The position numbers and the translations under genes were made by a program. A DNA stretch of 64,000 nucleotides, from positions 62,001-126,000 of IMG/VR virus record IMGVR_UViG_3300017991_005548; one strand, given 5' to 3'. Below, in pieces: positions 3,044 to 44,429 of this stretch. Under the pieces are notes generated by a model. That model searched no databases, was not told the origin of the DNA, and was given only the letters and a program-made list of their open reading frames with translations. This stretch comes from a virus. Within the stretch, counting starts at the first letter, position 1. Every line of letters begins with the position of its first letter.

Positions 3044-3071
3044 ATTATAGGGTATCATCCATGCTTTTCAA
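3044..3071 (-). promoter_or_regulatory. sigma70-type promoter, tRNA-Phe leader
   Basis: Minus-strand TTGAAA, 16-bp spacer, TATAAT. The spacer length is the same as at the other promoters in the window. Confidence 0.85.
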
Positions 3072-7409: not shown

Positions 7410-7458
7410 ACAATTATTCCGACACTTATCCCGACATTTTGTCGGGATTCAGAAAAAC

Positions 7459-7574
7459 GCCAGTGTATTGCTCATTTATACTACCTCACAAAGTTTAGAA
7501 TGCTGAATAGAACCTTATTCAAGTTCACTTTTAATAGTACTGTATGGGTGGGATTCGAACCCACATCTCTGGCT
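7459..7574 (-). tRNA. Circularly permuted tRNA candidate P1
   Basis: Read on the minus strand, a 3' half comes first: anticodon strand GCCAG, AGAT, T-arm GTGGG-TTCGAAT-CCCAC, acceptor CCATACA. After 50 nt comes a 5' half: acceptor TGTGAGG, D-arm GTAT/ATAC, anticodon strand CTGGC. CTGGC pairs perfectly with GCCAG, and the acceptor strands pair at 6 of 7 positions. The 3' half begins one nucleotide after the CCA of tRNA-Glu. The conserved stem-loop motif found in other tRNA genes lies between the halves. Sequence after CTGGC is GTTTTT, so Lys(TTT) is possible but unproven. Confidence 0.5.
7501..7528 (-). repeat. tRNA-associated stem-loop motif, copy E1
   Basis: Minus-strand stem GAACTT-GAATA-AGGTTC, then TATT and CAGCA. 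It lies between the two halves of P1. TATT complements AATA next to the D-stem of that tRNA. Confidence 0.7.
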
Positions 7575-7650
7575 TGGTATCCCCAACGGGAATTGAACCC
7601 GTATCTGTTGGTTGAGAACCAACTATCCTAGACCGTTAGACGATGGGGAC
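7575..7650 (-). tRNA. tRNA-Glu(CTC)
   Basis: Acceptor GTCCCCA/TGGGGAT, discriminator A, encoded CCA; anticodon arm GTTGG-TTCTCAA-CCAAC. Confidence 0.9.
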
Positions 7651-7657
7651 ATTAAAA

Positions 7658-7785
7658 ATGAGTCGGAAGGAATCGAACCTTCATTCCCTGGTTGATTTAT
7701 TAAACATCAAATAGTTGCTGGAACGAAACTTATACAGTTTCACTTGGTTTTATGTCCAGGAGTTCTACCATTAAACTACGACCCA
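7658..7785 (-). tRNA. Interrupted tRNA (Gln-like body) with E2 insert
   Basis: Acceptor TGGGTCG/CGACTCA pairs over 7 bp, the D-arm is GTTT/GAAC and the T-arm is AAGG-TTCGATT-CCTT. Anticodon stem CCTGG/CCAGG encloses 64 nt instead of 7. U1:A72 and the D-arm look Gln-like, but no anticodon with U33 can be read without knowing the splice points. CCA is not encoded. It could be an intron-bearing tRNA or one inactivated by insertion. Confidence 0.6.
7716..7743 (-). repeat. tRNA-associated stem-loop motif, copy E2
   Basis: Stem GAAACT-GTATA-AGTTTC keeps pairing while changing bases relative to the other copies. It is followed by GTTC, complementary to the D-stem strand GAAC of the same tRNA, and CAGCA. 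Confidence 0.75.
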
Positions 7786-7805
7786 AGTTGTATCTCTAAT
7801 GAGAT

Positions 7806-7882
7806 TGGTCGGGTATGCAGGATTCGAACCTGCGATCTCATCATCCCAAATGATGCGCCTTACCAGACTAGGCTAATACCCG
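7806..7882 (-). tRNA. tRNA-Pro(TGG) copy 1
   Basis: Acceptor CGGGTAT/ATACCCG, encoded CCA; anticodon arm CATCA-TTTGGGA-TGATG. Confidence 0.9.
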
Positions 7883-8055
7883 ATACAGAAGTGTTTTATC
7901 CTGTTAAACTATCCCCAACAAGATCGTACTTTAAGTCATCTGACACTAACTCATTTCTGACCCCAGAATATATTTTATTGTTTTGAATGTCAGTTCGTAA
8001 CAACTACTTTACACTCTTAAGCCGAGGCTGGGACTCGAACCCAGATCTCTCCTTT
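7883..8055 (-). tRNA. Circularly permuted tRNA candidate P2
   Basis: Minus strand, 3' half first: AA, anticodon strand AGGAG, AGAT, T-arm CTGGG-TTCGAGT-CCCAG, acceptor CCTCGGC. About 100 nt later comes the 5' half: acceptor GTTGGGG, D-arm GTTT/AAAC, anticodon strand CTTCT, then GTAT. All 7 acceptor positions (with wobbles) and all 5 anticodon-stem positions pair. The 3' half starts immediately after the CCA of the upstream tRNA and the 5' half stops immediately before the first base of tRNA-Pro. Processing of the neighbours would thus create both ends. Only six loop bases are accounted for, so the anticodon is unresolved. Confidence 0.5.
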
Positions 8056-8146
8056 TGGTGACGCAGACGGGATTCGAACCCGCAAAGGAATCTCTTCCTA
8101 CCAGATTGAAAGTCTGGTTACTTCAGGCCAATTTGTATACTGCGCC
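8056..8146 (-). tRNA. tRNA with UUC (Glu) anticodon, long variable arm
   Basis: Acceptor GGCGCAG/CTGCGTC, discriminator A, encoded CCA. Anticodon arm CCAGA-CTTTCAA-TCTGG gives TTC. The variable arm GGAA-GAGA-TTCC and the 3-bp D-stem are type II features, normally confined to Leu, Ser and bacterial Tyr tRNAs. Its charging identity is therefore uncertain. Confidence 0.75.
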
Positions 8147-8155
8147 ATTTTTTAG

Positions 8156-8273
8156 TCAGGACGGCTGGATTCGAACCAACTCCTTTAGCTCCTCAAGCTA
8201 AAATAAATATTGCTGTAGCGAACCTTATTGTCAAGTTCATGTTTATAACGTGCTACCATTACACTACGTCCTG
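8156..8273 (-). tRNA. Interrupted tRNA, anticodon GAG, with E3 insert
   Basis: Acceptor CAGGACG/CGTCCTG pairs over 7 bp. The D-arm GTGT/GCAC is complete. About 45 extra nt follow before anticodon arm TTAGC-TTGAGGA-GCTAA (GAG, Leu), a 4-nt variable loop and the T-arm GTTGG/CCAGC. The short variable loop is not Leu-like. No CCA is encoded. Confidence 0.6.
8211..8240 (-). repeat. tRNA-associated stem-loop motif, copy E3
   Basis: Stem GAACTT-GACAATA-AGGTTC followed by GCTA and CAGCA. GCTAC complements GTAGC in the D-arm of the host tRNA. Confidence 0.75.
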
Positions 8274-8318
8274 ATGGTCTGACCCTCAAAAATCATAAGT
8301 CTGATTCTCGAAAAGTCA

Positions 8319-8397
8319 TGGTCTGGATGGTAGGATTCGAACCTACGCTACTCCTCAGTCCAAGTGAGGCGGGATGACCAGACTTCCCCACATCCAG
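8319..8397 (-). tRNA. tRNA-Pro(TGG) copy 2
   Basis: Acceptor CTGGATG/CATCCAG, encoded CCA; anticodon arm CCTCA-CTTGGAC-TGAGG. The body is unlike copy 1. Confidence 0.85.
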
Positions 8398-8427
8398 ATT
8401 AAGTCTTCTAAATTTTCAAAGATCATT

Positions 8428-8503
8428 TGGTGACCCCAGTGGGAATCGAACCCAACCTTCCCAGGATGAAAACCTGGTGTCCTAGCCGATAGACGATGGG
8501 GCC
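8428..8503 (-). tRNA. tRNA-Glu(TTC)
   Basis: Acceptor GGCCCCA/TGGGGTC, encoded CCA; anticodon arm CCAGG-TTTTCAT-CCTGG. First gene of array 2, directly behind the attenuator terminators. Confidence 0.9.
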
Positions 8504-8544: not shown

Positions 8545-8553
8545 ACAAAAAAA

Positions 8554-8578
8554 GCCCTCCCGCTCATGGCAGAAGGGC
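8554..8578 (-). terminator. Attenuator terminator of tRNA array 2
   Basis: Minus-strand stem GCCCTTCTGC/GCGGGAGGGC (10 bp with wobbles) and a 7-T run. Its 5' arm segment CCTTCTGCC (8576-8568) can pair over 9 bp with GGCAGGAGG (8624-8616) inside the leader ORF, one pair being G-U. Confidence 0.85.
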
Positions 8579-8600
8579 CAAAATCATAGTTATGATCTAA

Positions 8601-8678
8601 CTACAGATCGGCTGACCTCCTGCCAAAGGCTGGCGGTTCTTCTCGTTCTGGTTCTCGAATGTACATGTAGTTGTTCAT
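8601..8678 (-). CDS. Leader peptide of tRNA array 2 (25 aa)
   Basis: The ORF begins MNNYMYIREPEREEPPAFG and stops after 25 codons; GAAAGGA precedes the ATG. The stretch E-P-E-R-E-E-P-P uses four GAA and three CCA/CCG codons, and the array has three tRNA-Pro genes and three Glu-anticodon tRNA genes. The codons GGC AGG AGG just after it form the antiterminator strand. The role is inferred from layout. Confidence 0.75.
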   Translation of the reverse strand: MNNYMYIREPEREEPPAFGRRSADL

Positions 8679-8703: not shown

Positions 8704-8731
8704 ATTATAAACCATCCTAGAGACTTTTCAA
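8704..8731 (-). promoter_or_regulatory. sigma70-type promoter, tRNA array 2
   Basis: Minus-strand TTGAAA, 16-bp spacer, TATAAT, 26 bp upstream of the leader ORF start. Confidence 0.85.
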
Positions 8732-27194: not shown

Positions 27195-27329
27195 AACTTG
27201 TTCCTCCTTTAGTTAGTTTGTTATGCAATTTTACTAAAAAGCAAAACACATGCCAACTCTATTTAAGCAGGAATCTAGGTAAGAAAAGGGACAGTTTGAC
27301 ACATATAAGTGAGACAAATGGGCGCAAAA

Positions 27330-27351
27330 AAGCGCCATCCTAAAATGGCGC
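27330..27351 (-). terminator. Terminator of tRNA array 3
   Basis: Minus-strand stem GCGCCAT/ATGGCGC followed by TTTTTT, downstream of the last tRNA-His. Confidence 0.8.
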
Positions 27352-27358
27352 TTGAGTT

Positions 27359-27450
27359 TGGGCGCAAGGACGGAATTCGAATCCGTAGGGGAGATTACCT
27401 CCAACAGGGTCACAACCTGTCACGCTAAGCCAATTACGTTCTACCTTGCG
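27359..27450 (-). tRNA. tRNA-His(GTG) with long variable arm
   Basis: Acceptor CGCAAGG/CCTTGCG, C73, encoded CCA; anticodon arm ACAGG-TTGTGAC-CCTGT. C73 is a His identity base, but the variable arm GGAG-GTAAT-CTCC is type II, not normal for His. Confidence 0.75.
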
Positions 27451-27451
27451 A

Positions 27452-27526
27452 TGGGCTACTCGACGGATCTTGAAACCGCAACCTCCAGGGCCACAACCTA
27501 GCGCTCTGCCTTTGAGCTACGAGTAG
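27452..27526 (-). tRNA. tRNA-His(GTG), canonical
   Basis: Acceptor CTACTCG/CGAGTAG, C73 with encoded CCA, and G at -1 in the transcript, the two standard His identity elements. Anticodon arm CTAGG-TTGTGGC-CCTGG. Confidence 0.9.
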
Positions 27527-27538
27527 CATCAAATTGGT

Positions 27539-28210
27539 CTATCCCAACCATTTGTCTCTTTTAAATCCACCTATTTCTTGAATGCCTCCCATAATTTTTT
27601 GTTTTATTTCAACGCTGTGTAATCTTACTGTGCAAATTCCGTATTTTAGTTTACCCTGAAATTCGCTAGATTTAAAATAACATTTTCTCAAATTTTCTTT
27701 CGTCAAACTAAGTGCATTAAGCCAAAATTCAACAATCTCTTGTTCAGAAACTCCATTGTTTGTATAGGCATTTATAGAAAGAGCAAATCTTTTTTCTTCA
27801 AACTCAAAGTGTTCTCTAAGGAACTTCATAAAAAGAATCATCATGTCAATATCGCTATTGCAGAATGTCACTCCTTTATTGGATTCTTTTGTTCCTTCTG
27901 CCCAATAAAGAATACAGCCAACCCGAAAACTTTCAGATATTTTAGCAAGTGCTCTTCCATCAGTTTGCCACTTCCTTCTTTTTCTTCTGAATTTTTCCGA
28001 ATATTTCTCCTGTTTACCAAAATAACCACCTTTTCTTGTTTTTGTCCTGTGCCGCAATTTTAGGTTTTCTATTTGTTCTTTCGTTAGTTGAATATCTCGA
28101 ACCCATAAACTAACAGACGATTGAGACACATCTAGAATCTTGGCTATTTTCTTTATAGATTGTCCACTTTTTCTTAGTTCTCTTGCTTTGTTTCTTTCGA
28201 CTTTTTTCAT
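27539..28210 (-). CDS. HTH protein, possible homing endonuclease, inside tRNA array
   Basis: 224 residues from ATG 28210 (MKKVERNKARELRKSGQSIK), preceded by GGGGG. Residues 8-32 form a helix-turn-helix (GQSIKKIAKILDVSQSSVSL). The rest (VGCILYWAEGTKESNKGVTF, NSDIDMMILFMKFL) resembles LAGLIDADG-like prophage proteins found near mobile endonucleases. Two palindromes flank its -10 box, suggesting self-repression. Its position between tRNA-His and tRNA-Met fits a mobile gene. Function is inferred. Confidence 0.6.
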   Translation of the reverse strand: MKKVERNKARELRKSGQSIKKIAKILDVSQSSVSLWVRDIQLTKEQIENLKLRHRTKTRKGGYFGKQEKYSEKFRRKRRKWQTDGRALAKISESFRVGCILYWAEGTKESNKGVTFCNSDIDMMILFMKFLREHFEFEEKRFALSINAYTNNGVSEQEIVEFWLNALSLTKENLRKCYFKSSEFQGKLKYGICTVRLHSVEIKQKIMGGIQEIGGFKRDKWLG

Positions 28211-28225
28211 TTTCGAACCCCCATA

Positions 28226-28266
28226 GTTATATGTGATATAACATATTATACAGCAAGTTCGAACTT
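28226..28266 (-). promoter_or_regulatory. Promoter region with two palindromes
   Basis: TATAAT at 28250-28245 lies between GTTATAT-GTG-ATATAAC (28226-28242) and AAGTTCGAACTT (28255-28266). The upstream palindrome covers the expected -35 area. Likely operators for the HTH protein. Confidence 0.55.
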
Positions 28267-28268
28267 TT

Positions 28269-28343
28269 TGGTAGCAGTATCGGGACTTGAACCCGAACGG
28301 CACTCCTTATGAAAGAGTCGCACTACCATTATGCTATACTGCT
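28269..28343 (-). tRNA. tRNA-Met(CAT)
   Basis: Acceptor AGCAGTA/TACTGCT, encoded CCA; anticodon arm ACTCT-TTCATAA-GGAGT. Elongator Met or an Ile2 (lysidine) form cannot be separated by eye. Confidence 0.85.
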
Positions 28344-28397
28344 ATGAAAGTCTTGGGCTAACCATTGCCCAACCTAGCGTCATTTATCGTATCCAAT

Positions 28398-28472
28398 TGG
28401 CGGTGATAAGGGGAATCGAACCCCTGTCCTCTGGGCGACAACCAGAAATCCTAGCCATTAAACGATATCACC
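28398..28472 (-). tRNA. tRNA-Asp(GTC) copy 1
   Basis: Acceptor GGTGATA/TATCACC, G73, encoded CCA; anticodon arm TCTGG-TTGTCGC-CCAGA. G73 fits Asp. Confidence 0.9.
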
Positions 28473-28478
28473 GATAAG

Positions 28479-28552
28479 CGGAACCGAAGGGACTCGAACC
28501 CTCAATCTCCTGATCGACAGTCAGGGGCACTAACCAATTGCGCTACGGCTCC
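28479..28552 (-). tRNA. tRNA-Asp(GTC) copy 2
   Basis: Acceptor GGAGCCG/CGGTTCC, G73, CCA not encoded; anticodon arm CCTGA-CTGTCGA-TCAGG. Body unlike copy 1. Confidence 0.85.
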
Positions 28553-28670
28553 ATAAAACTGAAAGCTCTAAAGTTTTCGTTAGTCTTTTTGCTTTCGCTC
28601 ATACTCCTATACTCTTTATTGTCCAATCCAGTTGTCAATTGGCTCTAAGGAACGATACGAACTTTCAGTT

Positions 28671-28747
28671 TGGTGACGACAGTTGGACTTGAACCAACGC
28701 TCTCCAGTGTGTCGAACTGGCGATTTATCCATCTAATCTATGCCGTC
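28671..28747 (-). tRNA. tRNA-Val(GAC)
   Basis: Acceptor GACGGCA/TGTCGTC, encoded CCA; anticodon arm CCAGT-TCGACAC-ACTGG. Position 33 is C instead of the near-universal U. Confidence 0.75.
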
Positions 28748-28751
28748 AATT

Positions 28752-28829
28752 TGGTTCTGCGAGAGGGACTTGAACCCCCGACCTCCTCCTTATCAGGGAG
28801 GCGCTACTTACCATCTGAGCTACCGCAGA
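28752..28829 (-). tRNA. tRNA-Ile(GAT), canonical
   Basis: Acceptor TCTGCGG/TCGCAGA, encoded CCA; anticodon arm CCTCC-CTGATAA-GGAGG. Confidence 0.9.
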
Positions 28830-28834
28830 ATCAT

Positions 28835-28925
28835 TGGTGGGAGTAGCAGGACTTGAACCTGCGTTTACCTTTCGGCCTCCTGTGTATCAGACAGGCGCTC
28901 TAACCAAATACTGAGCTATACTCCC
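28835..28925 (-). tRNA. tRNA-Ile(GAT) with long variable arm
   Basis: Acceptor GGGAGTA/TACTCCC, encoded CCA; anticodon arm CCTGT-CTGATAC-ACAGG. The variable region of about 16 nt contains GCC-GAAA-GGT, a type II arm unexpected for Ile. Confidence 0.8.
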
Positions 28926-28985
28926 ATAACATTCTTTTTGCATTGTAACATCATCAATGTTATCGTGCAAATTTGATGTTACAAT
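28926..28985. repeat. Two interleaved inverted repeats between tRNA genes
   Basis: ATAACATT (28926-28933) pairs with AATGTTAT (28956-28963), and ATTGTAACATCA (28942-28953) pairs with TGATGTTACAAT (28974-28985). The two cross, so they are alternative hairpins or a pseudoknot. Confidence 0.6.
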
Positions 28986-29060
28986 TGGCAGGGACGAAAG
29001 GATTTGAACCCTTACCGCATGGTTTTGGAGACCAGCAGGCTACCATTACAACACGCCCCT
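28986..29060 (-). tRNA. tRNA-Trp(CCA)
   Basis: Acceptor AGGGGCG/CGTCCCT, G73, encoded CCA; loop CTCCAAA on stem TGGT/ACCA. G73 fits Trp. Confidence 0.9.
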
Positions 29061-29065
29061 GTTAG

Positions 29066-29141
29066 TGGTACTCCTACCAGAACTCGAACCTGGATCTTCG
29101 ACTTCGAAGGCCGTTATTCTAATCCATTGAACTATAGGAGC
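29066..29141 (-). tRNA. tRNA-Arg(TCG)
   Basis: Acceptor GCTCCTA/TAGGAGT, encoded CCA; anticodon arm CGGC-CTTCGAA-GTCG. Confidence 0.85.
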
Positions 29142-29175
29142 ATCTACATATAAATTTTCAAAGAACTCTAATTCT

Positions 29176-29252
29176 TGGTACACCCAGCAGGATTTGAACC
29201 TGCAACCTCCTGGTTCGTAGCCAGACGCTCTATCCAATTGAGCTATGAGTGC
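29176..29252 (-). tRNA. tRNA-Arg(ACG)
   Basis: Acceptor GCACTCA/TGGGTGT, encoded CCA; anticodon arm TCTGG-CTACGAA-CCAGG. A34 would need deamination to inosine by the host. Confidence 0.85.
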
Positions 29253-29257
29253 AACTT

Positions 29258-29334
29258 TGGTACTCCTGGCGGGACTCGAACCCACATAGACCTGTTTAGA
29301 AGACAGGTGCCTGATCCAGTTAGACTACAGGAGC
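29258..29334 (-). tRNA. tRNA-Arg(TCT)
   Basis: Acceptor GCTCCTG/CAGGAGT, encoded CCA; anticodon arm CCTGT-CTTCTAA-ACAGG. Confidence 0.9.
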
Positions 29335-29342
29335 ATCTAAAA

Positions 29343-29498
29343 TTATTTCAACTTTTCTTTCGCTTTTTTCAAATCCTCAATTAACTGTTTCTTTGAGTAG
29401 TTTCTGCCTACCCAAACTAATTCATACATTTTCTCGTCTTTTTGATTCTGAACACTGTTCAGAACTCGTTCTAAAATCTCTTGTGCTGTTTCTTTCAT
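29343..29498 (-). CDS. 51-aa charged protein inside tRNA array 3
   Basis: AGGAGAGG precedes the ATG; part of it belongs to the tRNA-Arg(CCT) 3' end. The product (MKETAQEILERVLNSVQNQK, ending KKQLIEDLKKAKEKLK) is helical and charged. The central WVGRNYSKKQLIEDL looks like a small folded segment. Not recognised; too short for a domain call. Confidence 0.6.
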   Translation of the reverse strand: MKETAQEILERVLNSVQNQKDEKMYELVWVGRNYSKKQLIEDLKKAKEKLK

Positions 29499-29501
29499 TT
29501 T

Positions 29502-29576
29502 TGGCCTCTCCTATAGGACTCGAACCTATATCTGCGGTTTAGGAAACCGATATTCTATCCCTTGAACTAAGGAGAG
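29502..29576 (-). tRNA. tRNA-Arg(CCT)
   Basis: Acceptor CTCTCCT/AGGAGAG, G73, encoded CCA; anticodon arm CGGT-TTCCTAA-ACCG. First gene of array 3. Confidence 0.9.
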
Positions 29577-29590
29577 TCAGGCACAAAAAA

Positions 29591-29616
29591 AGCCCAAGCT
29601 CCTTAGAGCCTGGGCT
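29591..29616 (-). terminator. Attenuator terminator of tRNA array 3
   Basis: Minus-strand stem AGCCCAGGCTC-TAAG-GAGCTTGGGCT and a 7-T run. The segment GAAGCCC-A-GGCTC (29618-29606) can instead pair over 12 bp with GAGCC-ACA-GGGCTTC (29675-29661) in the leader ORF. Confidence 0.9.
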
Positions 29617-29635
29617 TCGTAAATCTGCTTATCTA

Positions 29636-29716
29636 TCAGAACATGCGATAGCGCAGATCAGAAGCCCTGTGGCTCCAATCGCGTCTAATAATATGCATGT
29701 CTCTAACAACGTTCAT
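29636..29716 (-). CDS. Leader peptide of tRNA array 3 (26 aa)
   Basis: The product starts MNVVRDMHIIRRDW. Residues 3-14 (VVRDMHIIRRDW) are drawn only from Val, Arg, Asp, Met, His, Ile and Trp. That set is exactly the amino-acid set of the 13 tRNA genes downstream. AAGGA precedes the ATG at about 10 nt. The codons immediately after (AGC CAC AGG GCT TCT) form the antiterminator strand. I infer ribosome stalling here when these tRNAs run short. Confidence 0.85.
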   Translation of the reverse strand: MNVVRDMHIIRRDWSHRASDLRYRMF

Positions 29717-29761
29717 TTTTCTTAAATCCTTATTCGATTTAGTTTTTCAACTTACCCTCAT

Positions 29762-29798
29762 TAGTCACATTTGATTTGAGTTTTTCTCAGATCTGTAC
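29762..29798 (-). repeat. 37-nt leader element, copy 1
   Basis: Shares TAGTCACATTTGAT and AGATCTGTAC with 30377-30413. Between them lies a small hairpin that keeps pairing in both copies with different bases. It is in the 5' leader of array 3. Confidence 0.6.
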
Positions 29799-29813
29799 CA
29801 AGAAGTTATTATC

Positions 29814-29841
29814 ATTATAAGCCTTATTCAGAGTATTTCAA
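29814..29841 (-). promoter_or_regulatory. sigma70-type promoter, tRNA array 3
   Basis: Minus-strand TTGAAA, 16-bp spacer, TATAAT, about 100 bp upstream of the leader ORF. Confidence 0.85.
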
Positions 29842-32563: not shown

Positions 32564-33997
32564 TTAGACGGTGACCCCTTCTGGGACTACGATTTCATAC
32601 TTCTCGATTGCTCGATCAAGTACTGCCATTGGCGAGAAATCAGTGCCTCCGAGAACTGCGCCTAAGATTGAAGGACTGAAGCCACTTACAAGAGCAACAT
32701 TCTCATGCGTACCTCTTGCAGGACTTCCTGCATATCCAGCAGTATTCCAATATACAATCTTTGGACGACTGTATCCATTTGCTTCCCACTCTTCCATGCA
32801 TCTTTCAATAGTGGTCTTATCGCAGTTACTAGCGCCAGAGCACCAGCCTCCACCATTATCGAACTGCATGTCTGAAATGATCAACAGACAGTTTGGAATC
32901 TGTTCATCAGTTACGTTGAACATCTTTGCAGAGTTCAGGATCTGATCAAGAGCCGCCTTGACGTTCGTTGATCCACAATATCCTTCTCTTCTGCAACGCT
33001 GAATTCCCTGAACAAAAGTCTTTCCCTTCCAATCGACAAGGTGACTGTCGTTTGAGAATGGAATGAACTTCCTGTAGAAAGGGTTATCCTTTCCAACCCT
33101 GTCAGAGCAGTACAATCCCAAACTGGTTGAGATATCAATAGCTCTGATAGAACCAGAGACAGTAACTCCCATAGATCCAGAGAAGTCACAAATTGGCATG
33201 ATTCTCATGTTGCAGTCTTCCATGAAGTTTGGAAGAGCTTCAAACTGAGCATTTGCCAACTTACCATCCTTGTTAGCAGTACGAAGAACGTCATGTGGGA
33301 ACAAAGCACTTGCGTTAACCTTGTTGTCAGAGTCCTCGTCAGTCAAAGACTCTCTCCACTGATCGTATCTTGCAGGATCATGCTTCAAGAATGCGTTAGC
33401 AGATCTTGCCATTGCGACAGAAGGAACAGTGTTGTAGTCAATGTCATGCCAGTCGCCTGAGCACATTGCAGTCTCTACAACATTAGTGTACTCAGCCAAG
33501 TGCTTTCTGAATACCTTTGGAGACATTCCGAGAGCCTTTCTAAGCTTTGCGAAAACAACCTTGTTCTTCTTCTCTCTTGGTGCCCACTTGCAAGCAAGAC
33601 CATGCTTATCAGCAATAGCTCTTGCCCAGTACTGGATTGCAGTATCTTCGCAAGGAGTATCGATACATGCAGTCAAGTCATCCCAACGTCCAGTCTCTGG
33701 AATAAGATGAATATTGACAGTAATCCACTCAGGATGCTTCTCAGCCATCCACTTCAATACAGAACGGAATCCGCTTCTGTTACCTGCTCCACCTCTAGCA
33801 TCACGAAGCCAGAAAGCAAGCTTTGCGGCACGAAGTTGATCGGACTTGAACGCAGGCTTAAACAAGTTCAGAGCACCTGCCTCCGAACCGTAGTAGCTAC
33901 CACGCTTCTCGAAAAGTGATCCTGCCTTGGAGAAGAACTCCAAAAGTGCGTTTCCAGTTGAGTCATACAGAAAGTCGTTGTTGTGTCCTCTTGCCAT
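32564..33997 (-). CDS. DUF2828/Ro60-like RNA-binding protein with vWA domain
   Basis: 477 residues. The N-terminal two thirds are a helical-repeat region with LAFWLRDARGGAGNRSGFRS and IPETGRWDDLTACI, signatures of DUF2828 that resemble the HEAT-like ring of TROVE/Ro60 proteins. The C-terminal vWA domain has an intact MIDAS (ICDFSGSMGVTVSG, later ISDMQFDNGGG). Ro60 proteins bind Y RNAs and defective RNAs. The gene has a leader of about 480 nt holding a promoter and a terminator, so a partner RNA may be encoded there. AGGAGG precedes the ATG. Confidence 0.75.
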   Translation of the reverse strand: MARGHNNDFLYDSTGNALLEFFSKAGSLFEKRGSYYGSEAGALNLFKPAFKSDQLRAAKLAFWLRDARGGAGNRSGFRSVLKWMAEKHPEWITVNIHLIPETGRWDDLTACIDTPCEDTAIQYWARAIADKHGLACKWAPREKKNKVVFAKLRKALGMSPKVFRKHLAEYTNVVETAMCSGDWHDIDYNTVPSVAMARSANAFLKHDPARYDQWRESLTDEDSDNKVNASALFPHDVLRTANKDGKLANAQFEALPNFMEDCNMRIMPICDFSGSMGVTVSGSIRAIDISTSLGLYCSDRVGKDNPFYRKFIPFSNDSHLVDWKGKTFVQGIQRCRREGYCGSTNVKAALDQILNSAKMFNVTDEQIPNCLLIISDMQFDNGGGWCSGASNCDKTTIERCMEEWEANGYSRPKIVYWNTAGYAGSPARGTHENVALVSGFSPSILGAVLGGTDFSPMAVLDRAIEKYEIVVPEGVTV

Positions 33998-34028: not shown

Positions 34029-34475
34029 AAAAAAAAGACCAGTCAAACTTGGTTCCGAGTCCCATCTCGCGTATGGAACAAAGTCTAACTGGTCAAAGTT
34101 AAAAATCGGAACAGGTTAGCAATTTTGGTTTTCATTTCAAGTGAAAGTTTTGGTTGCTGTAACTAACCTTCTATCCTAAATTAAAAATTTGAACAGACTG
34201 ACTTGTTTTTTTTAGCATAAAAAATTTTGAGTTGCTGAATGCAGTCTTATATCAAATTGTTTTTCTAAATTTTCCTTTTTCTTGTTTTCAAAGAAACAAG
34301 TGAAACAGCTTGGGTTTTCCATCCTTTATTTCAGACCTCGATGAATTTGGGTCCTCAAATTTATTTTTAAAACCCTCTCGACTGGGTTCTCGTTTTATTT
34401 CTGTCAGGGCGACTCTGACGCTCGTTTTATCGTGTTTTTTGGTTGCAGTAACCAAGCTTTATTCAGTTGTTGGTT
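34029..34475 (-). ncRNA. Transcribed leader of Ro-like gene, candidate Y-RNA-like RNA
   Basis: A consensus promoter (34478-34505) and a strong terminator (stem GACCAGTT.../...TTTGACTGGTC, 34037-34094, then eight Ts) bracket about 440 nt upstream of the Ro-like gene. No convincing protein is present; a 36-codon ORF at 34212-34322 has a poorly spaced ribosome-binding site. Internal structure includes GGTTAG/CTAACC (34168-34163 with 34119-34114), with an anticodon-arm-like hairpin TTTCA-CTTGAAA-TGAAA. Bacterial Y RNAs are often encoded beside Ro genes and have tRNA-like parts. It could also be an attenuator only. Confidence 0.5.
34037..34094 (-). terminator. Long-stem terminator before Ro-like gene
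   Basis: Arms of 20 nt pair with one mismatch and a few wobbles; followed by eight Ts. It ends the leader RNA about 30 bp before the Ro-like ATG. Confidence 0.8.
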
Positions 34476-34477
34476 CC

Positions 34478-34505
34478 ATTATAAGGATTACGAAAAACTT
34501 TTCAA
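34478..34505 (-). promoter_or_regulatory. sigma70-type promoter of Ro-like unit
   Basis: Minus-strand TTGAAA, 16-bp spacer, TATAAT. Confidence 0.85.
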
Positions 34506-34534
34506 GTCGGTTTTGAATATTTTTTTTGAATTTT

Positions 34535-39637: not shown

Positions 39638-39729
39638 TGGCGGAAGGAGAGGGATTTGAACCCTCGTGCCCCTTTCAGGACCAACCGCTTTCCAGGCGGT
39701 GACGATTAACCAGACTCCGTCATCCTTCC
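39638..39729 (-). tRNA. tRNA-Ser(GGA)
   Basis: Acceptor GGAAGGA/TCCTTCC, G73, encoded CCA; anticodon arm ACCGC-CTGGAAA-GCGGT; long variable arm, as expected for Ser. It lies alone between protein genes. Confidence 0.9.
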
Positions 39730-39735
39730 ATATTT

Positions 39736-39993
39736 TTATTTTTCATCTTGGGTTTTCGTTTCCCCTACTTTGATCAGATGTCTTGGGTTAACTAAAACAA
39801 GATAATTTTTAAGTACACAATATCCATTATCCAACATATACTCAATTTCATACATGGTGTTTATACTCATACTCCAAATACCTGCACCATGCCAGTCTTG
39901 ATATTTTTGGGGGCGTTTAACAACATCCCCAATTTTCAAGCCGTTAGGATTGCAAACATCTGCCAGTTCAAGATCCGTTCTTTTCATCTTCAA
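39736..39993 (-). CDS. Unknown small protein
   Basis: 85 residues, beta-rich (VVKRPQKYQDWHGAGIWSMS). It overlaps the next gene by 26 bp. Not recognised. Confidence 0.5.
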   Translation of the reverse strand: MKMKRTDLELADVCNPNGLKIGDVVKRPQKYQDWHGAGIWSMSINTMYEIEYMLDNGYCVLKNYLVLVNPRHLIKVGETKTQDEK

Positions 39994-40246
39994 GTTCCTT
40001 GTTGATGAAATTCTTTAACACTGCATTGAACCCAATAGAGACAAGTTCTGAAAGCTCGTCCTCTGTTAAATCATGGGTTCTGACCCCCTCAATATTTTCT
40101 GATGCTTTTACAGCAACAACAGGAAGTCCACTCTCTTTTATTAAATCTTTTAGTGCAATAAGTATTAACGTATCGATCTCTCCTTCAGTAAGATCGATCT
40201 TAAATGGTTCGCCTGCTTCAAGTTTTTCTGGTTCAAGAATTTTCAT
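39968..40246 (-). CDS. Unknown acidic protein
   Basis: 92 residues, helical and acidic (DLTEGEIDTLILIALKDLIK). Overlapping starts and stops link it to its neighbours in a coupled run. Not recognised. Confidence 0.5.
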   Translation of the reverse strand: MKILEPEKLEAGEPFKIDLTEGEIDTLILIALKDLIKESGLPVVAVKASENIEGVRTHDLTEDELSELVSIGFNAVLKNFINKELEDEKNGS

Positions 40247-40443
40247 CGTTTAATTACCTTCTCAGGCATTTCATCTCTTTTGTTCACAACCATGTACTTC
40301 CCATTGCCCTCAAAAATAACAGAAAGACCGCCATTTATTAGCTTAGCTGTTTCGCATTTGATCATTTCTGCCCCATCTTTTCTTTTGATCATCTCCCCAA
40401 CATACTCTTCCTGTACTTTTTGATTGATAAAATCTGTTAGATT
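40243..40443 (-). CDS. Unknown small protein
   Basis: 66 residues from ATG 40443 (MNLTDFINQKVQEEYVGEMI), selected for AAAGGTAG upstream. A small beta-rich fold (LSVIFEGNGKYMVVNKRDEM). Not recognised. Confidence 0.5.
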   Translation of the reverse strand, partial: NLTDFINQKVQEEYVGEMIKRKDGAEMIKCETAKLINGGLSVIFEGNGKYMVVNKRDEMPEKVIKR

Positions 40444-40450
40444 CATATAT

Positions 40451-40663
40451 CTACCTTTTATTTGGCTCTTCAATCACCATTATACAGCCAAGATTAGTAT
40501 CAAAGTAACTAAGTCCATATTCTTCCAGAACTTCTAGGACCAGTTCCCTCATTTTAAGGGAATTTCCTGTAACAACCTCAAAAGGAGGGTCATAATTAAA
40601 AATATGAGAGTCAAGTAAAGACCGAACATCTTGATGCTTAACCCCATGTAAATCTAACTTCAT
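40451..40663 (-). CDS. Small Smr-domain-like protein
   Basis: 70 residues from ATG 40663. It starts MKLDLHGVKHQDVRSLLDSH and contains FEVVTGNSLKMRELVLEVLE. LDLHG and TGNSxxM are the two signature segments of Smr (small MutS-related) domains, which nick DNA or cleave RNA. In recent work on ribosome rescue, Smr domains cleave mRNA at stalled ribosomes, so a translation link is possible. The protein is a minimal single domain. Confidence 0.6.
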   Translation of the reverse strand: MKLDLHGVKHQDVRSLLDSHIFNYDPPFEVVTGNSLKMRELVLEVLEEYGLSYFDTNLGCIMVIEEPNKR

Positions 40664-41313
40664 TTTCCGTGTAACCAACCCTTCCGATTATGAGTCTCTT
40701 TCATTTGAACCTCTTCGGAAGGGACATAAAGACAGTGGTCCTGGATATATCGTTGAACTTCTTCGTCCAAATATGGCAAAAAGTCTGATCTGCCATGTTT
40801 TTTGAAGTGATCTCTTGCCATAGTAGACGAACATTCGGTAATTTTGTCTTCTACGTCCAAGAAAAGATGGGGAGGATTCTTATACCATCGATATTTCTTC
40901 TTCAATTCGATTCCACTTCTTGTTACAACAACAAATTTGGCAATTTCCCGTAATTTTTTGAAATTATGCCAGTTAATGAAGTTGTTTACGTTGTCAGCAC
41001 CAATGATAAAACTGATATCAACATCAAGTTGTGGGTCTTTGAGGAGGGTTTGGACTAATTCGAAGGTCGAACCACTCAGTTCATGTCTAATTTCGTAATC
41101 AAATACATGAAGTTTCGGATTTTTTCTGCAAGCGATAGCGCACATCCTGAGTCTGTGTAAATTAAGCTCTAAATTCTTACCAAATCGATGTTTATTGCAA
41201 GGCAAGAGCCAAACTTCATCAAATTTTCCTTTTTCAAGGACAAATTCAGCTACTTGTATATGAGCAAGTGTTGGGGGATTGAAAGCCCCGCCAAGAATGG
41301 CAATTTTAGTCAT
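40660..41313 (-). CDS. nadD: Nicotinate-nucleotide adenylyltransferase (NadD-like)
   Basis: 217 residues from ATG 41313 behind GGAG. ILGGAFNPPTLAHIQVAEFV holds the GxFxPxHxAH nucleotidyltransferase motif with a Leu-Ala-His variant, and IIGADNVNNFINWHNFKKLR is the NaMN site. The C-terminal SSTMARDHF corresponds to the ISxTxxR motif. It should form NaAD or NAD from the mononucleotide and ATP. Large phages sometimes rebuild NAD after host depletion systems act; no second NAD gene is visible here. Confidence 0.85.
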   Translation of the reverse strand: MTKIAILGGAFNPPTLAHIQVAEFVLEKGKFDEVWLLPCNKHRFGKNLELNLHRLRMCAIACRKNPKLHVFDYEIRHELSGSTFELVQTLLKDPQLDVDISFIIGADNVNNFINWHNFKKLREIAKFVVVTRSGIELKKKYRWYKNPPHLFLDVEDKITECSSTMARDHFKKHGRSDFLPYLDEEVQRYIQDHCLYVPSEEVQMKETHNRKGWLHGK

Positions 41314-41331
41314 AGTTTTCTCCAATGATTT

Positions 41332-41419
41332 TGGCGGAAGAGGTGGGATTCGAACCCACGGATGCTCTCACATCAACGGTTTTCAAGACCGCCGCCTTCG
41401 ACCTCTCAGCCACTCTTCC
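41332..41419 (-). tRNA. tRNA-Ser(TGA) copy 1
   Basis: Acceptor GGAAGAG/CTCTTCC, G73, encoded CCA; anticodon loop CTTGAAA on CGGT/ACCG; long variable arm. Confidence 0.9.
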
Positions 41420-41431
41420 AAATTTTGATGG

Positions 41432-41572
41432 ACAAGACGGGATTCGAACCCGCAAATCGAGATGCCTCACCCATTGCTTAGGAGAAAAATAACTCCTGCC
41501 CATGGTAGCGACATTACTCTTAAGACCAGAGCCTCAACTTTGCCAATTTAAGTTACTTGCCCGTCTTGTCAA
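41432..41572 (-). tRNA. Aberrant tRNA-like gene, possibly Leu(TAA)
   Basis: T-arm GCGGG-TTCGAAT-CCCGT and an acceptor of the type ACAAG/CTTGT frame about 140 nt. A CTGGT-CTTAAGA segment looks like a Leu(TAA) anticodon half, with ACCA 11 nt further on, but an inserted hairpin (GGAG-TTATTTTT-CTCC) separates it from a variable arm GAGGCATCTC. Boundaries and identity are uncertain; it could be an interrupted tRNA or a remnant. Confidence 0.4.
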
Positions 41573-41576
41573 ATTT

Positions 41577-41698
41577 TGGCGGATGAGGTAGGATTCGAAC
41601 CTACACTGTAGCGGTTTCTGTTTTTTGGTTGCTGAAGAGAACCTTTTTGTCAAGTTCATTTTTTGGACCGCCGTCTCTGCCAGTTGGACTACTCATCC
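41577..41698 (-). tRNA. Interrupted tRNA with E4 insert
   Basis: Acceptor GGATGAG/CTCATCC, G73 and encoded CCA are intact, as is the T-arm GTAGG-TTCGAAT-CCTAC. Anticodon stem GCGGT/ACCGC encloses 51 nt. Direct repeats CCAAAAAA flank the stem-loop motif inside. No U33-containing anticodon is readable without knowing the splice sites. Confidence 0.6.
41630..41659 (-). repeat. tRNA-associated stem-loop motif, copy E4
   Basis: Stem GAACTT-GACAAAA-AGGTTC followed by TCTT and CAGCA. TCTT can pair with GAGA of the host tRNA D-arm (one G-U). Confidence 0.75.
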
Positions 41699-41709
41699 AT
41701 ATTTATAGT

Positions 41710-41737
41710 AATATAGCCTTAAAATAAGAGATTGCAA
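41710..41737 (-). promoter_or_regulatory. sigma70-type promoter for Ser/odd tRNA group
   Basis: Minus-strand TTGCAA, 16-bp spacer, TATATT, 12 bp before the first tRNA. No leader ORF or terminator here. Confidence 0.6.
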
Positions 41738-41756
41738 GTTAAATATAAAGAAAAAT

Positions 41757-41843
41757 TGGAGGAAGATTGAGGGTTCGAACCCCATCCCTTTCGGAACCAT
41801 CTGTTTTCGAAACAGTGACAGGAGCCATCCTGCATAATCTTCC
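41757..41843 (-). tRNA. tRNA-Ser(CGA)
   Basis: Acceptor GGAAGAT/ATCTTCC, T73, encoded CCA; anticodon loop TTCGAAA on CTGT/ACAG; long variable arm. T73 is unusual for Ser. Confidence 0.8.
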
Positions 41844-41851
41844 ATAGAAAT

Positions 41852-41941
41852 TGGCGGAAGGGGAGGGATTCGAACCCTCGGACCCCTTGCGGGGTCGCAG
41901 GTTTAGCAAACCTGTACTTTCGGCCACTCAGTCACCCTTCC
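41852..41941 (-). tRNA. tRNA-Ser(GCT) copy 1
   Basis: Acceptor GGAAGGG/CCCTTCC, G73, encoded CCA; anticodon arm CAGGT-TTGCTAA-ACCTG; long variable arm. Confidence 0.9.
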
Positions 41942-41951
41942 ATAGGGGGCA

Positions 41952-42689
41952 TTATACCCCAAAAATCAATAATTCAAAATCGCCATTCTCATGTTCTACG
42001 ATTGCAGAGCAATGCTCTACCCAATCTCCGCAGTTATAGTAGTCAATCCCATCAATTTTTTTGATTATAGGAGAATGAACATGACCACATATAACTCCAT
42101 CGCAATGATTCTCTTTGGCATACTCTGAAAGGAGACCTTCAAACTCTCCAACATAAGTAACAGCTTTTTTAAAATTTTCCCTGGCAAACTTTGATAAACG
42201 AACTCTTTTCACTCCGAACATCCTTAAACATCTTGCCAGGAACTCATTCATTGAAACAAGAGTGTCATAACCCCAACTTCCAACCTTTGAGATCATGACT
42301 CCAATTCTTGAAAAAAGAATGAAATCAAACTTATCTCCATGAGTGATGTAATACTTCTTTCCAAAACTGTGATAATATGTTTCTTTACAAATTTCCAGGT
42401 TCGGATAATGAAAACTGTCCAAAAGTTCCATCATACCATGATCATGATTTCCTAAAACATAATGGACGTTACAGTGTTTTGACATTTTTAGAAGTCTTCT
42501 AATGACTTCTGTTTGGTTTTTATCCCATTTAGTTCTGTCTAATCTCCAAAGATCAAAGATATCTCCGATAAGATATAAATTGTCACATTCAGTCTCTTTT
42601 AGGAATTTAAGTAGTTCTTTAGATTTGCATCCAACACTGGCCATGTGGCAGTCTGAGATGAATACTGCTCGGTACTTAGTTTTACTCAT
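41952..42689 (-). CDS. Metallophosphoesterase (LpxH-like)
   Basis: 245 residues from ATG 42689, preceded by AGGAGG at 6 nt. Calcineurin-like motifs in order: FISDCHM, LIGDIFDLW, LGNHDHGM, THGDKFD and CGHVHSPII, all metal ligands present. GDIFDLW and the C-terminal GDWVEHC are typical of UDP-2,3-diacylglucosamine hydrolase relatives. The substrate could be a lipid A precursor, nucleotide or other phosphodiester. It lies inside the tRNA region between Ser(TGA) and Ser(GCT). Confidence 0.8.
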   Translation of the reverse strand: MSKTKYRAVFISDCHMASVGCKSKELLKFLKETECDNLYLIGDIFDLWRLDRTKWDKNQTEVIRRLLKMSKHCNVHYVLGNHDHGMMELLDSFHYPNLEICKETYYHSFGKKYYITHGDKFDFILFSRIGVMISKVGSWGYDTLVSMNEFLARCLRMFGVKRVRLSKFARENFKKAVTYVGEFEGLLSEYAKENHCDGVICGHVHSPIIKKIDGIDYYNCGDWVEHCSAIVEHENGDFELLIFGV

Positions 42690-42777
42690 ATTTTTCCTCC
42701 TATAAGTAGTAAGGAATAATACTGAGAAAACAGGATAAAACCTACTCAATAATGAGTTGTTAACCAAGTATTAATAT

Positions 42778-42868
42778 TGGCAGAGGGAGTGGGACTCGAA
42801 CCCACAAACCGCATTTCTACAGCTTACATGATTTCAAATCAAGCTCTTCATCCAGCCAGATTCCCTCC
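42778..42868 (-). tRNA. tRNA-Ser(TGA) copy 2
   Basis: Acceptor GGAGGGA/TCCCTCT, G73, encoded CCA; loop TTTGAAA on a stem with one mismatch; long variable arm. Last gene of array 4. Confidence 0.8.
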
Positions 42869-42874
42869 ATTGAT

Positions 42875-42960
42875 TGGTAGCTAGGAGGGGGGTCGAACCC
42901 CTACGCCTTTCGGCATTAGTTTCTAAGACTAACATGTCTACCAAGTTCCATCACCTAGCC
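42875..42960 (-). tRNA. tRNA-Leu(TAG), type II
   Basis: Acceptor GGCTAGG/CCTAGCT, A73, encoded CCA; anticodon arm TTAGT-CTTAGAA-ACTAA; variable arm TGCC-GAAA-GGCG. Confidence 0.9.
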
Positions 42961-42965
42961 ATCTT

Positions 42966-43042
42966 TGGTAGCCTCGCTGGGAGTCGAACCCAGAACATAC
43001 AGTTTCTAAGACTGCCCTCTCTGCCAATTGGAGTACGAGACC
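42966..43042 (-). tRNA. tRNA-Leu(TAG), short variable loop
   Basis: Acceptor GGTCTCG/CGAGGCT, A73, encoded CCA; anticodon arm GCAGT-CTTAGAA-ACTGT; variable loop only ATGTT. Leu tRNAs normally have a long variable arm. Confidence 0.8.
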
Positions 43043-43050
43043 ATTAAATT

Positions 43051-43136
43051 TGGCGGAAGGTAGGAGATTCGAACTCCTATGCCCGTGAGGACGACAGTTT
43101 AGCAAACTGCTGGCTTACCATTCGCCACAACCTTCC
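43051..43136 (-). tRNA. tRNA-Ser(GCT) copy 2
   Basis: Acceptor GGAAGGT/ACCTTCC, G73, encoded CCA; anticodon arm GCAGT-TTGCTAA-ACTGT; long variable arm. Confidence 0.9.
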
Positions 43137-43138
43137 AT

Positions 43139-43225
43139 TGGTAGCCAGGGAGGGCCTCGAACCCTTACTCCCTTTCGGGAACTGGATTTTGAATCCAGCG
43201 CGTCTGCCAATTTCACCACCTGGCC
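43139..43225 (-). tRNA. tRNA-Leu(CAA)
   Basis: Acceptor GGCCAGG/CCTGGCT, A73, encoded CCA; anticodon arm CTGGA-TTCAAAA-TCCAG; variable arm CCC-GAAA-GGG. Confidence 0.9.
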
Positions 43226-43236
43226 AATAAATTTAA

Positions 43237-43306
43237 TGGAGCTAATGAGATTCGAACTCATCCCCCTGCCTCTATGGGCAGTTCGGCTACCGTCTAGTAA
43301 CCCCAA
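43237..43306 (-). tRNA. Degenerate tRNA-like gene
   Basis: Acceptor GGGGTTA/TAGCTCC pairs at all 7 positions with wobbles and the T-arm ATGAG-TTCGAAT-CTCAT is good. The D-arm is very short, and the anticodon stem CTGCC/GGCAG encloses only CATAGA. No CCA and no readable anticodon; probably a decayed or unusual tRNA. Confidence 0.4.
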
Positions 43307-43336
43307 TTGGTTGCGTATAAACATATAAACAATATT

Positions 43337-43424
43337 TGGTAGTCTCGGGGAGATTCGAACTCCCACCTCCTTCGCGGAGACAACGACCTCAACGTTGCGT
43401 GTCTGCCAGTTCCACCACGAGACC
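43337..43424 (-). tRNA. tRNA-Leu(GAG)
   Basis: Acceptor GGTCTCG/CGAGACT, A73, encoded CCA; anticodon arm CAACG-TTGAGGT-CGTTG; variable arm CTCC-GCGAA-GGAG. Confidence 0.9.
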
Positions 43425-43471
43425 ATTATAAGTGGCCATAACTGACGAATTAACCCCAGTTTTGGCCGTTT

Positions 43472-43491
43472 ATTCGTAATATATTACGAAT
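43472..43491. repeat. 20-bp perfect palindrome
   Basis: ATTCGTAATATATTACGAAT between tRNA-Leu genes; possible protein-binding site or hairpin. Confidence 0.6.
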
Positions 43492-43494
43492 TAT

Positions 43495-43570
43495 TGGTAG
43501 CCCTGGTCGGATTCGAACCGACACTTTACGGATTTTAAGTCCGCTCCCTCTGCCGTTGGAGTACAGGGCC
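43495..43570 (-). tRNA. tRNA-Leu(TAA), short variable loop
   Basis: Acceptor GGCCCTG/CAGGGCT, A73, encoded CCA; anticodon arm GCGGA-CTTAAAA-TCCGT; variable loop AAAGT. Short loop unexpected for Leu. Confidence 0.8.
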
Positions 43571-43575
43571 ATTTT

Positions 43576-43641
43576 TAACTGTTTTTCTCGTTATAGTGGA
43601 AAATATAACTGTTTTTCCAGTTTTGTAACTGTTTTTCCAGT
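43576..43641. repeat. Three direct repeats of TAACTGTTTTTC
   Basis: TAACTGTTTTT occurs three times; the last two extend to TAACTGTTTTTCCAGT, whose ends are self-complementary. They fill the gap between tRNA-Leu and tRNA-Tyr. Confidence 0.7.
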
Positions 43642-43645
43642 AAAA

Positions 43646-43737
43646 TGGTGAGCAGGGAGGGATTCGAACCCCCAATGTTTACCCAAAGGGGACAGATTTA
43701 CAGTCTGCCGCAACACCACCATCGTTGCCGCCTACCC
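43646..43737 (-). tRNA. tRNA-Tyr(GTA) copy 1
   Basis: Acceptor GGGTAGG/CCTGCTC, A73, encoded CCA; anticodon arm GCAGA-CTGTAAA-TCTGT; long variable arm as in bacterial Tyr. Confidence 0.9.
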
Positions 43738-43741
43738 ATTT

Positions 43742-43829
43742 TGGTCCTGGTGGTAGGTAACGATCCTACTTGATGCGCAATGATGATAGTTTTACAGACT
43801 ACCCCGTCTCCTTAACGGTCTACACCAGG
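43742..43829 (-). tRNA. tRNA-Tyr(GTA) copy 2, divergent T-loop
   Basis: Acceptor CCTGGTG/CACCAGG, encoded CCA; anticodon arm GTAGT-CTGTAAA-ACTAT. The T-arm is GTAGG-ATCGTTA-CCTAC, lacking the TTCGA loop. C1:G72 resembles archaeal/eukaryotic Tyr rather than bacterial. Confidence 0.75.
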
Positions 43830-43834
43830 ATAAA

Positions 43835-43854
43835 AAGGTGACTTAAGTCACCTA
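43835..43854 (-). terminator. Internal terminator in array 4
   Basis: Minus-strand palindrome AGGTGACTTAAGTCACCT followed by TTTTTA, splitting the Cys tRNAs from the rest. Confidence 0.65.
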
Positions 43855-43940
43855 ATGCCTCTGGGTCAGACTTACCAATACCGTCATATTGGGTCCGATA
43901 GCCCAGTAAGGACTTTAAGCGTCTGGTTTTCCCCAGACCC
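43855..43940 (-). other. Structured spacer between tRNA-Cys and the internal terminator
   Basis: Hairpins GTCTGG/CCAGAC and CTGGG/CCCAG with an inner CCAATA/TATTGG are visible. No ORF or T-arm was found. It may be a small RNA or a processing spacer. Confidence 0.4.
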
Positions 43941-44028
43941 TGGAGCGCGGTGAGGGATTCGAACCCTCGCGGACATAAGTCCCATCAGTTTTGCAGACTG
44001 TGCCATTAAACCACTCTGGCAACCGCGC
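43941..44028 (-). tRNA. tRNA-Cys(GCA) with long variable arm
   Basis: Acceptor GCGCGGT/ACCGCGC, T73 (a Cys identity base), encoded CCA; loop CTGCAAA on CAGT/ACTG; variable arm GGGAC-TTAT-GTCC is type II, unusual for Cys. Confidence 0.8.
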
Positions 44029-44034
44029 ATATTA

Positions 44035-44105
44035 AGCACGATGTCGGAATCGAACCGACTTCTGCGGGTTTGCAATCCGCCGCCTCACCATCTGGCTCAT
44101 CGTGC
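44035..44105 (-). tRNA. tRNA-Cys(GCA), short variable loop
   Basis: Acceptor GCACGAT/ATCGTGC, T73, no encoded CCA; anticodon loop TTGCAAA on GCGG/CCGC. First gene of array 4. Confidence 0.85.
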
Positions 44106-44240
44106 ATGGCAATAAAATTTCAAAGATCTCTTGATGTTTTAAATATTCCCGTTCGGTAACATTCGAAACACTCTGAAGTTCAAAACCTTAGAATATTACC
44201 GCTCGGTAACATTTTGGCTATCAATTAAGCCATAAAAAAA

Positions 44241-44264
44241 CCCCGTTCGGAAAACCGAACGGGG
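44241..44264 (-). terminator. Attenuator terminator of tRNA array 4
   Basis: Minus-strand stem CCCCGTTCGG-TTTT-CCGAACGGGG and a T-run. Its 5' side CAACCCCGT (44267-44259) is a perfect 9-bp complement of ACGGGGTTG (44311-44303) within the leader ORF. Confidence 0.9.
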
Positions 44265-44284
44265 TTGAAAACCGAGTTAAGAAC

Positions 44285-44362
44285 TTACGTTCTCTGGACG
44301 CACAACCCCGTCCATCTCAAACTGAGATATGATGAACATAGGCTGAGCGATAAAGATTTCAT
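44285..44362 (-). CDS. Leader peptide of tRNA array 4 (25 aa)
   Basis: The product starts MKSLSLSLCSSYLSLRW. Residues 3-15 (SLSLSLCSSYLSL) are 13 residues in a row made only of Ser, Leu, Cys and Tyr, which is the amino-acid set of array 4. Ser codons TCT, TCG, AGC, TCA, AGT and Leu codons TTA, CTC, CTA, TTG are all sampled. AGGAAAG precedes the ATG. The next codons ACG GGG TTG form the antiterminator strand. Confidence 0.85.
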   Translation of the reverse strand: MKSLSLSLCSSYLSLRWTGLCVQRT

Positions 44363-44401: not shown

Positions 44402-44429
44402 ATTATAAACTGGATCTGAAGCTTTTCAA
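44402..44429 (-). promoter_or_regulatory. sigma70-type promoter, tRNA array 4
   Basis: Minus-strand TTGAAA, 16-bp spacer, TATAAT. Confidence 0.85.

Follow-up and report, generated by a model that had tools for sequence, protein, structure and literature searches.

Ribosome-mediated transcription attenuation is well known for amino-acid operons and for pheST, with leader peptides described for trp, his, leu, thr, ilvGMEDA, pheA and pheST. Some of these leader peptides are multivalent, as in thr and ilv. To our knowledge, no leader-peptide attenuator controls tRNA genes. The purpose and timing of phage tRNAs is an old open question, and phage tRNA arrays have been proposed to replace host tRNAs or to resist tRNA-cleaving defences (PMC10264068). 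The arrays described below are of the same type as the tRNA clusters of T4, KVP40 and the huge phages of Al-Shayeb et al. 2020 (PMC7162821). Leader peptides or attenuation are not described in the huge-phage paper (PMC7162821) or in recent work on phage tRNAs (PMC10264068), and a literature search returned no report of a leader peptide or attenuator before phage tRNA arrays. Since most subscription papers and preprints lay outside the coverage of that search, priority is not proven.

The window analysed here is a stretch of 64,000 nucleotides (G000:C1:62001-126000) from a huge-phage record of 296,327 bp. Proteins encoded in the window have matches to phage families of helicase, DNA-methyltransferase and ATP-dependent protease. 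One of its tRNA arrays, array 3, lies on the minus strand behind a promoter (TTGAAA-16-TATAAT, 29814-29841), a Shine-Dalgarno-like AAGGA as ribosome-binding site (about 29727-29731), a 26-codon leader ORF encoding MNVVRDMHIIRRDWSHRASDLRYRMF (29636-29716), and an intrinsic terminator consisting of a hairpin and T-run (29589-29618), in that order. The 13 tRNA genes follow (27363-29576: four Arg, Trp, two Ile, Val, two Asp, Met and two His), and a terminator-like hairpin ends the array (27325-27353, minus strand). The region is very probably a ribosome-mediated transcription attenuator of a phage tRNA operon. Its anatomy, the amino-acid and codon match between leader and array, and the conservation and spread of the design are observed; stalling, readthrough and a feedback role are inferred, without expression, Term-seq or ribosome-profiling data.

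The control codons of the array 3 leader are codons 3-14 (29675-29710, minus strand; GTT GTT AGA GAC ATG CAT ATT ATT AGA CGC GAT TGG), which read VVRDMHIIRRDW. A sequence-only reading of this DNA had claimed that they specify no amino acid outside the array's set of seven (V, R, D, M, H, I, W), with Arg the commonest in both leader run and array, and the sequence bears out both points. Outside this run, N2 and the tail SHRASDLRYRMF bring in residues beyond the array set (N, S, A, L, Y, F). Within the run, all codons for Val, Ile and Arg can be read by an array 3 anticodon, and no other array suits the leader as well as its own. That reading had also counted 13 tRNAs, including two for His. ARAGORN finds 12, and the count is nevertheless correct because a tRNA-His(GTG) lies at about 27450-27363, scoring 28.4 bits against an Rfam cut-off of 29. 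All tRNA identities are ARAGORN calls, and CAT anticodons may be Met, initiator or Ile-2.

The matched codons end where the antiterminator begins. Segment 2, its 5' strand (GAGCCACAGGGCTTC, 29661-29675, minus strand), starts at the last control codon, and segment 3 (GAAGCCCAGGCTC, 29606-29618, minus strand) serves both as terminator 5' arm and as antiterminator partner. Segment 4 (29584-29601, minus strand) is the terminator 3' arm with its T-run. The 12-bp antiterminator over the terminator arm that had been proposed, in which GAGCCacaGGGCTTC (29675-29661) pairs with GAAGCCCaGGCTC (29618-29606), is reproduced by computation, at -20.2 kcal/mol vs -22.9 for the terminator. The design meets the sequence-level criteria for a leader-peptide attenuator, namely an ORF with start codon and ribosome-binding site, enrichment in relevant codons, and an intrinsic terminator before the tRNAs, and it works like the trp type, although there are no data on the readthrough response. 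A further criterion, that antiterminator and terminator exclude each other according to ribosome position, is met by folding only.

In the proposed mechanism, RNA polymerase would start at 29814 or just below, with a ribosome behind it translating the leader ORF. Scarcity of any tRNA needed by the control codons would stall the ribosome on those codons, leaving segment 2 free to pair with the terminator 5' arm, and the polymerase would continue into the tRNA genes. Unhindered reading of the control codons would instead bring the ribosome to the stop codon, where it covers segment 2; the terminator, placed just past the footprint of the stop-codon ribosome, would then form and switch the array off. 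Because the leader codons correspond to the tRNAs of their own array, such a circuit should supply the missing tRNAs and stop once they are restored. The inferred role of the attenuator is probably tRNA-supply feedback.

The same phage carries further arrays of this design, all those within the window on the minus strand. Array 4 (Cys, Tyr, Leu and Ser isoacceptors, 39638-44105) is preceded by a promoter (44402-44429), a leader ORF encoding MKSLSLSLCSSYLSLRWTGLCVQRT, in which SLSLSLCSSYLSL stands out (44285-44362), and an attenuator terminator (44234-44266). Array 2 (three Glu and three Pro, 7332-8503) has its promoter at 8704-8731, its leader ORF at 8601-8678 (MNNYMYIREPEREEPPAFGRRSADL, containing EPEREEPP) and its attenuator terminator, followed by a second terminator, at 8547-8579. 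Array 1 (two Phe, 2713-2868) likewise has a promoter (3044-3071), a leader ORF (MNNLNNIFRFFSHL, 2974-3018) and an attenuator terminator (2909-2935) with a second terminator behind it. Outside the window, the leader MYATTKTTKTTKTTKKRVASGGLLS, with the stretch TTKTTKTTKTTKK, belongs to a Thr/Lys array and the leader MKKRVEIAIAVVAVAVVADGQGFSALSG to a Val/Ala/Ile array. A near-identical 476-kb contig, which carries more of the phage genome than the 296,327-bp record, adds a Gln/Asn array with the leader MSVQVQQNNQNNQALEGFGRLFSA, including the stretch QVQQNNQNNQ.

Promoter, Shine-Dalgarno-like sequence, ORF and terminator occur in order at each of the seven leader-bearing arrays (translation itself has not been shown), with CTTGAAA-N16-TATAAT at the same spacing upstream of all, and the leader matches the array in seven of seven. 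The match extends to codons where Ile and Val each occur in two arrays: the leader of the Ile-GAT/Val-GAC array uses ATT and GTT, and that of the Ile-TAT/Val-TAC array uses ATA and mainly GTA. It had been predicted in advance that the 476-kb contig would hold extra tRNAs for Asn, Gln and Gly, each with a matching leader. This proved right for Gln/Asn, where array and leader are present, and wrong for Gly, because the Gly tRNAs sit in a leaderless Met/Gly array. Several arrays in the same phages lack a leader, including this Met/Gly array, lone tRNAs and an amber suppressor.

The Met/Gly array (L026 600-2560, minus strand) has a similar promoter directly before its first tRNA and contains many degenerate tRNA-like stretches. 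The amber suppressor is a lone CUA-anticodon tRNA with its own promoter and no leader (L005 1396-1470; G000:C1:197398-197469, minus strand). TAG ends three of 50 long ORFs of the window, and the leaders of arrays 1 and 2 end in TAG. Some tRNA-like genes carry anticodon-arm insertions of roughly 45-60 nt (window 7658-7785, 8146-8275 and 41580-41698, minus strand; L028 5195-5325, plus strand; and others), several of which share a hairpin GAACYTGAC..AAGGTTC followed by CAGCAA; whether these genes are intron-like or degenerate is unexplained. Protein genes are also found within tRNA arrays (window 40660-41325, 41952-42767 and 27539-28303, minus strand), encoding a cytidylyltransferase-like protein, a metallophosphatase and a helix-turn-helix protein. 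The region 34040-34506 (minus strand) holds an array-type promoter (CTTGAAAAG-N14-TATAAT) and, behind it, a non-coding stretch with repeats TTAC(A/T)GCAACCAAAA, a motif resembling one in the tRNA insertions. The stretch lies just upstream of a gene for a Ro-like RNA-binding protein (32564-33997) and is possibly a Ro-associated RNA. The longer contig of the phage also encodes tmRNA (L028 1-353, minus strand; Rfam, 88 bits).

Matching leaders with terminators are found well beyond this phage: in LR745206 (634 kb), in LR756501 (735 kb), in Bacillus phage G, and in further IMG/VR contigs reached via alignment of the ClpA-like protein. In phage G, the leader is the annotated gp86, which stands before Cys, Asp, Phe, Tyr, Glu, Thr and Ser tRNAs. 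When three leader-peptide families were used as bait in IMG/VR, all 23 loci recovered lay upstream of an array encoding the leader's amino acids, at a leader-to-array distance of 62-176 nt, and 22 had a recognised terminator. A few of these loci are redundant or come from contigs already sampled, and at one (L170) the match is weak. G003, the nearest relative found for the window phage, has a ClpA-like protein 52% identical and leaders beginning MHSRRQDRMWDRM before an RMMDRRWM array and MKNLSLSSSLSLSSCYLS before a CYLLLLSSSS array. The core of the former lacks V and I, and its R,M,D,W array likewise lacks Val and Ile tRNAs. Loss of the leader ORF in homologues would have refuted the sequence-only reading; the ORF is conserved, in G003 for example. 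The attenuator which that reading implied is supported, with the same match at seven arrays here and at dozens elsewhere among huge phages, though there are no data on stalling.

The leader of LR756501 (L037 2919 and upstream) has no evident Shine-Dalgarno sequence, and we take the sequence upstream of it to resemble Bacteroidetes promoters. Together these features suggest that the design works in a very different host. No matching leader was found in arrays of KVP40, GAP32, XaC1, an Ochrobactrum phage or Phosso, and a search of bacterial and archaeal genomes with leader family A2 returned no matches. Searches of cultured phages with short leader peptides (tblastn) gave almost none, with the low-complexity filter and query length as the probable cause. 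Single-protein searches in IMG/VR matched only the near-identical 476-kb contig, and the shared promoter pattern was found only there and in an unrelated, tRNA-free hit (L012). No match to the terminase family PF03237 was found in the phage record.

The generality of the match was assessed with a blind rule, in which a leader is an ATG ORF of 9-60 codons that ends close to a terminator and lies at most 600 nt upstream of an array. Applied to phages sampled by the presence of a ClpA-like or Ro-like gene or a phage G-type helicase, and not by their leaders, the rule yielded 38 arrays with two or more tRNAs; most come from unrelated huge phages, and Bacillus phage G is among the sources. The summed match of leaders to their own arrays is 201 (-log10 p) vs 57 ± 8 when permuted (z = 18), the maximum among 20,000 permutations being 91. 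Related phages in the sample are not independent; after homologous families are thinned, z is 17.5. Positional leader candidates that do not match occur in KVP40, L047 and L148. Counted by codon, 89 positions in the leaders can be decoded by an anticodon of the array concerned, where phage codon usage would predict 69 (z = 4.1); for 188 of 211 isoacceptors, the leader of their array contains a matching codon.

These codon data bear on what the leaders sense. It is possible, though in our judgement unlikely, that the attenuators mainly sense amino-acid starvation, responding to uncharged tRNA and not to the loss of a tRNA. Charging state is what known leader-peptide attenuators sense, and anatomy alone cannot separate charging from tRNA abundance. 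However, the leader codons fit the isoacceptors of the array and not just the amino acid, and the controlled product is tRNA, which would bring no relief for an amino-acid shortage.

In one leader family, N/S is 0.17 in the core and about 1.2 in the tail; on this comparison, leader cores are under purifying selection. Such selection, like the annotation of the phage G leader as a protein (gp86), would also be expected if the leader ORF were translated without controlling termination, whether it paces the polymerase, protects the 5' end or makes a functional peptide, with the match to the array arising otherwise. This is quite improbable, as the peptides differ widely between arrays and yet their composition tracks each array, and as an intrinsic terminator recurs at a narrow distance past the stop codon together with a position-dependent antiterminator.

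The direction of the attenuator switch was inferred by placing a ribosome at each codon in turn and folding the RNA that it leaves free, as far as the terminator loop. These are equilibrium pairing probabilities on truncated RNA and are approximate, while real attenuation is kinetic. The mean probability that the terminator 5' arm is sequestered is 0.72 with the ribosome on the control codons vs 0.18 at the stop codon, and sequestration is higher on the core than at the stop in 29 of 31 leaders. The two exceptions are arrays 1 and 2 of the window phage, which were scored with the distal (second) terminator; with the first terminator, array 2 shows a sharp switch (0.83 to 0.00) and array 1 a weak one (0.88 to 0.43-0.62). 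In array 3, predicted sequestration falls from 0.92 with the ribosome on the early control codons to 0.00 once it is at the stop. With shuffled spacers, sequestration is 0.44, compared with 0.76 observed. The stop codon and the terminator are 13-47 nt apart (median 24), a distance at which a ribosome terminating at the stop does not obstruct the terminator. When the ribosome is left out of the folding, the terminator arm of most leaders is still predicted to be sequestered (mean 0.65), and it would consequently be the finished ribosome that switches the array off; a few leaders, among them that of array 4, show low ribosome-free sequestration (0.01-0.23).

Direction is unmeasured in the present data, and it remains conceivable that the switch has the opposite sign, with stalling on control codons raising termination and so limiting tRNA output during slow translation. 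We consider this highly improbable, since stalled ribosomes leave the antiterminator free in those same 29 leaders, the control codons lying upstream of the point where a ribosome begins to cover segment 2. Lastly, although the 12-codon run was picked by eye and about 30% of the residues in an average proteome belong to its seven amino acids, a chance origin of the match, or post hoc choice of a residue run in a random short ORF, can be rejected, as no 12-residue run of array amino acids appeared in a short ORF in 3000 shuffles of the array 3 upstream region, the true leader-array pairing in the window phage is the single best of 5040 permutations, z under the blind rule is about 18, and all 23 bait loci match.

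On balance, we favour the broader proposal that codon-specific feedback operates in several unrelated lineages of huge phages: each tRNA operon would use a leader peptide to test whether its own tRNA set is available, and would make tRNAs only when decoding fails, for example after host or defence nucleases have destroyed tRNAs; this would be the first leader-peptide-regulated tRNA supply. In that case, the lack of a tRNA would itself prompt its resupply, through a tiny leader gene built from the amino acids of the array. The leaders would spell out which tRNA shortages the phage responds to, making the question of phage tRNA purpose directly testable with reporters, and regulated tRNA arrays could be predicted from the leader design by a simple rule. 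For such work a phage in culture is available, because the leader of Bacillus phage G is already annotated.

Among described systems, T-box riboswitches likewise respond to tRNA and control termination, but they bind tRNA directly and have no leader peptide. A T-box riboswitch was rejected for lack of any covariance-model match in the window or the sampled arrays. The window leaders match no Rfam leader family, tRNAs being the only matches in the window above gathering thresholds, and the additional sampled arrays gave only tRNA and tmRNA matches. The closest likeness is to the attenuators of amino-acid operons and pheST, which share a leader ORF rich in control codons, an overlapping antiterminator and terminator, and ribosome position as the switch; the array 1 peptide (IFRFF), in our view, resembles phenylalanine leaders. 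Unlike trp, where absence of translation leads to termination, most phage leaders are predicted to be open without a ribosome. Known attenuators govern bacterial biosynthesis or synthetase genes, whereas the phage leaders would control the phage's own tRNA arrays, and leader-peptide attenuation would then reach beyond amino-acid genes to tRNA supply, in phages whose hosts differ widely. Again unlike the known examples, one phage leader may cover about seven to ten amino acids, with codons that match the isoacceptors of the array it precedes.
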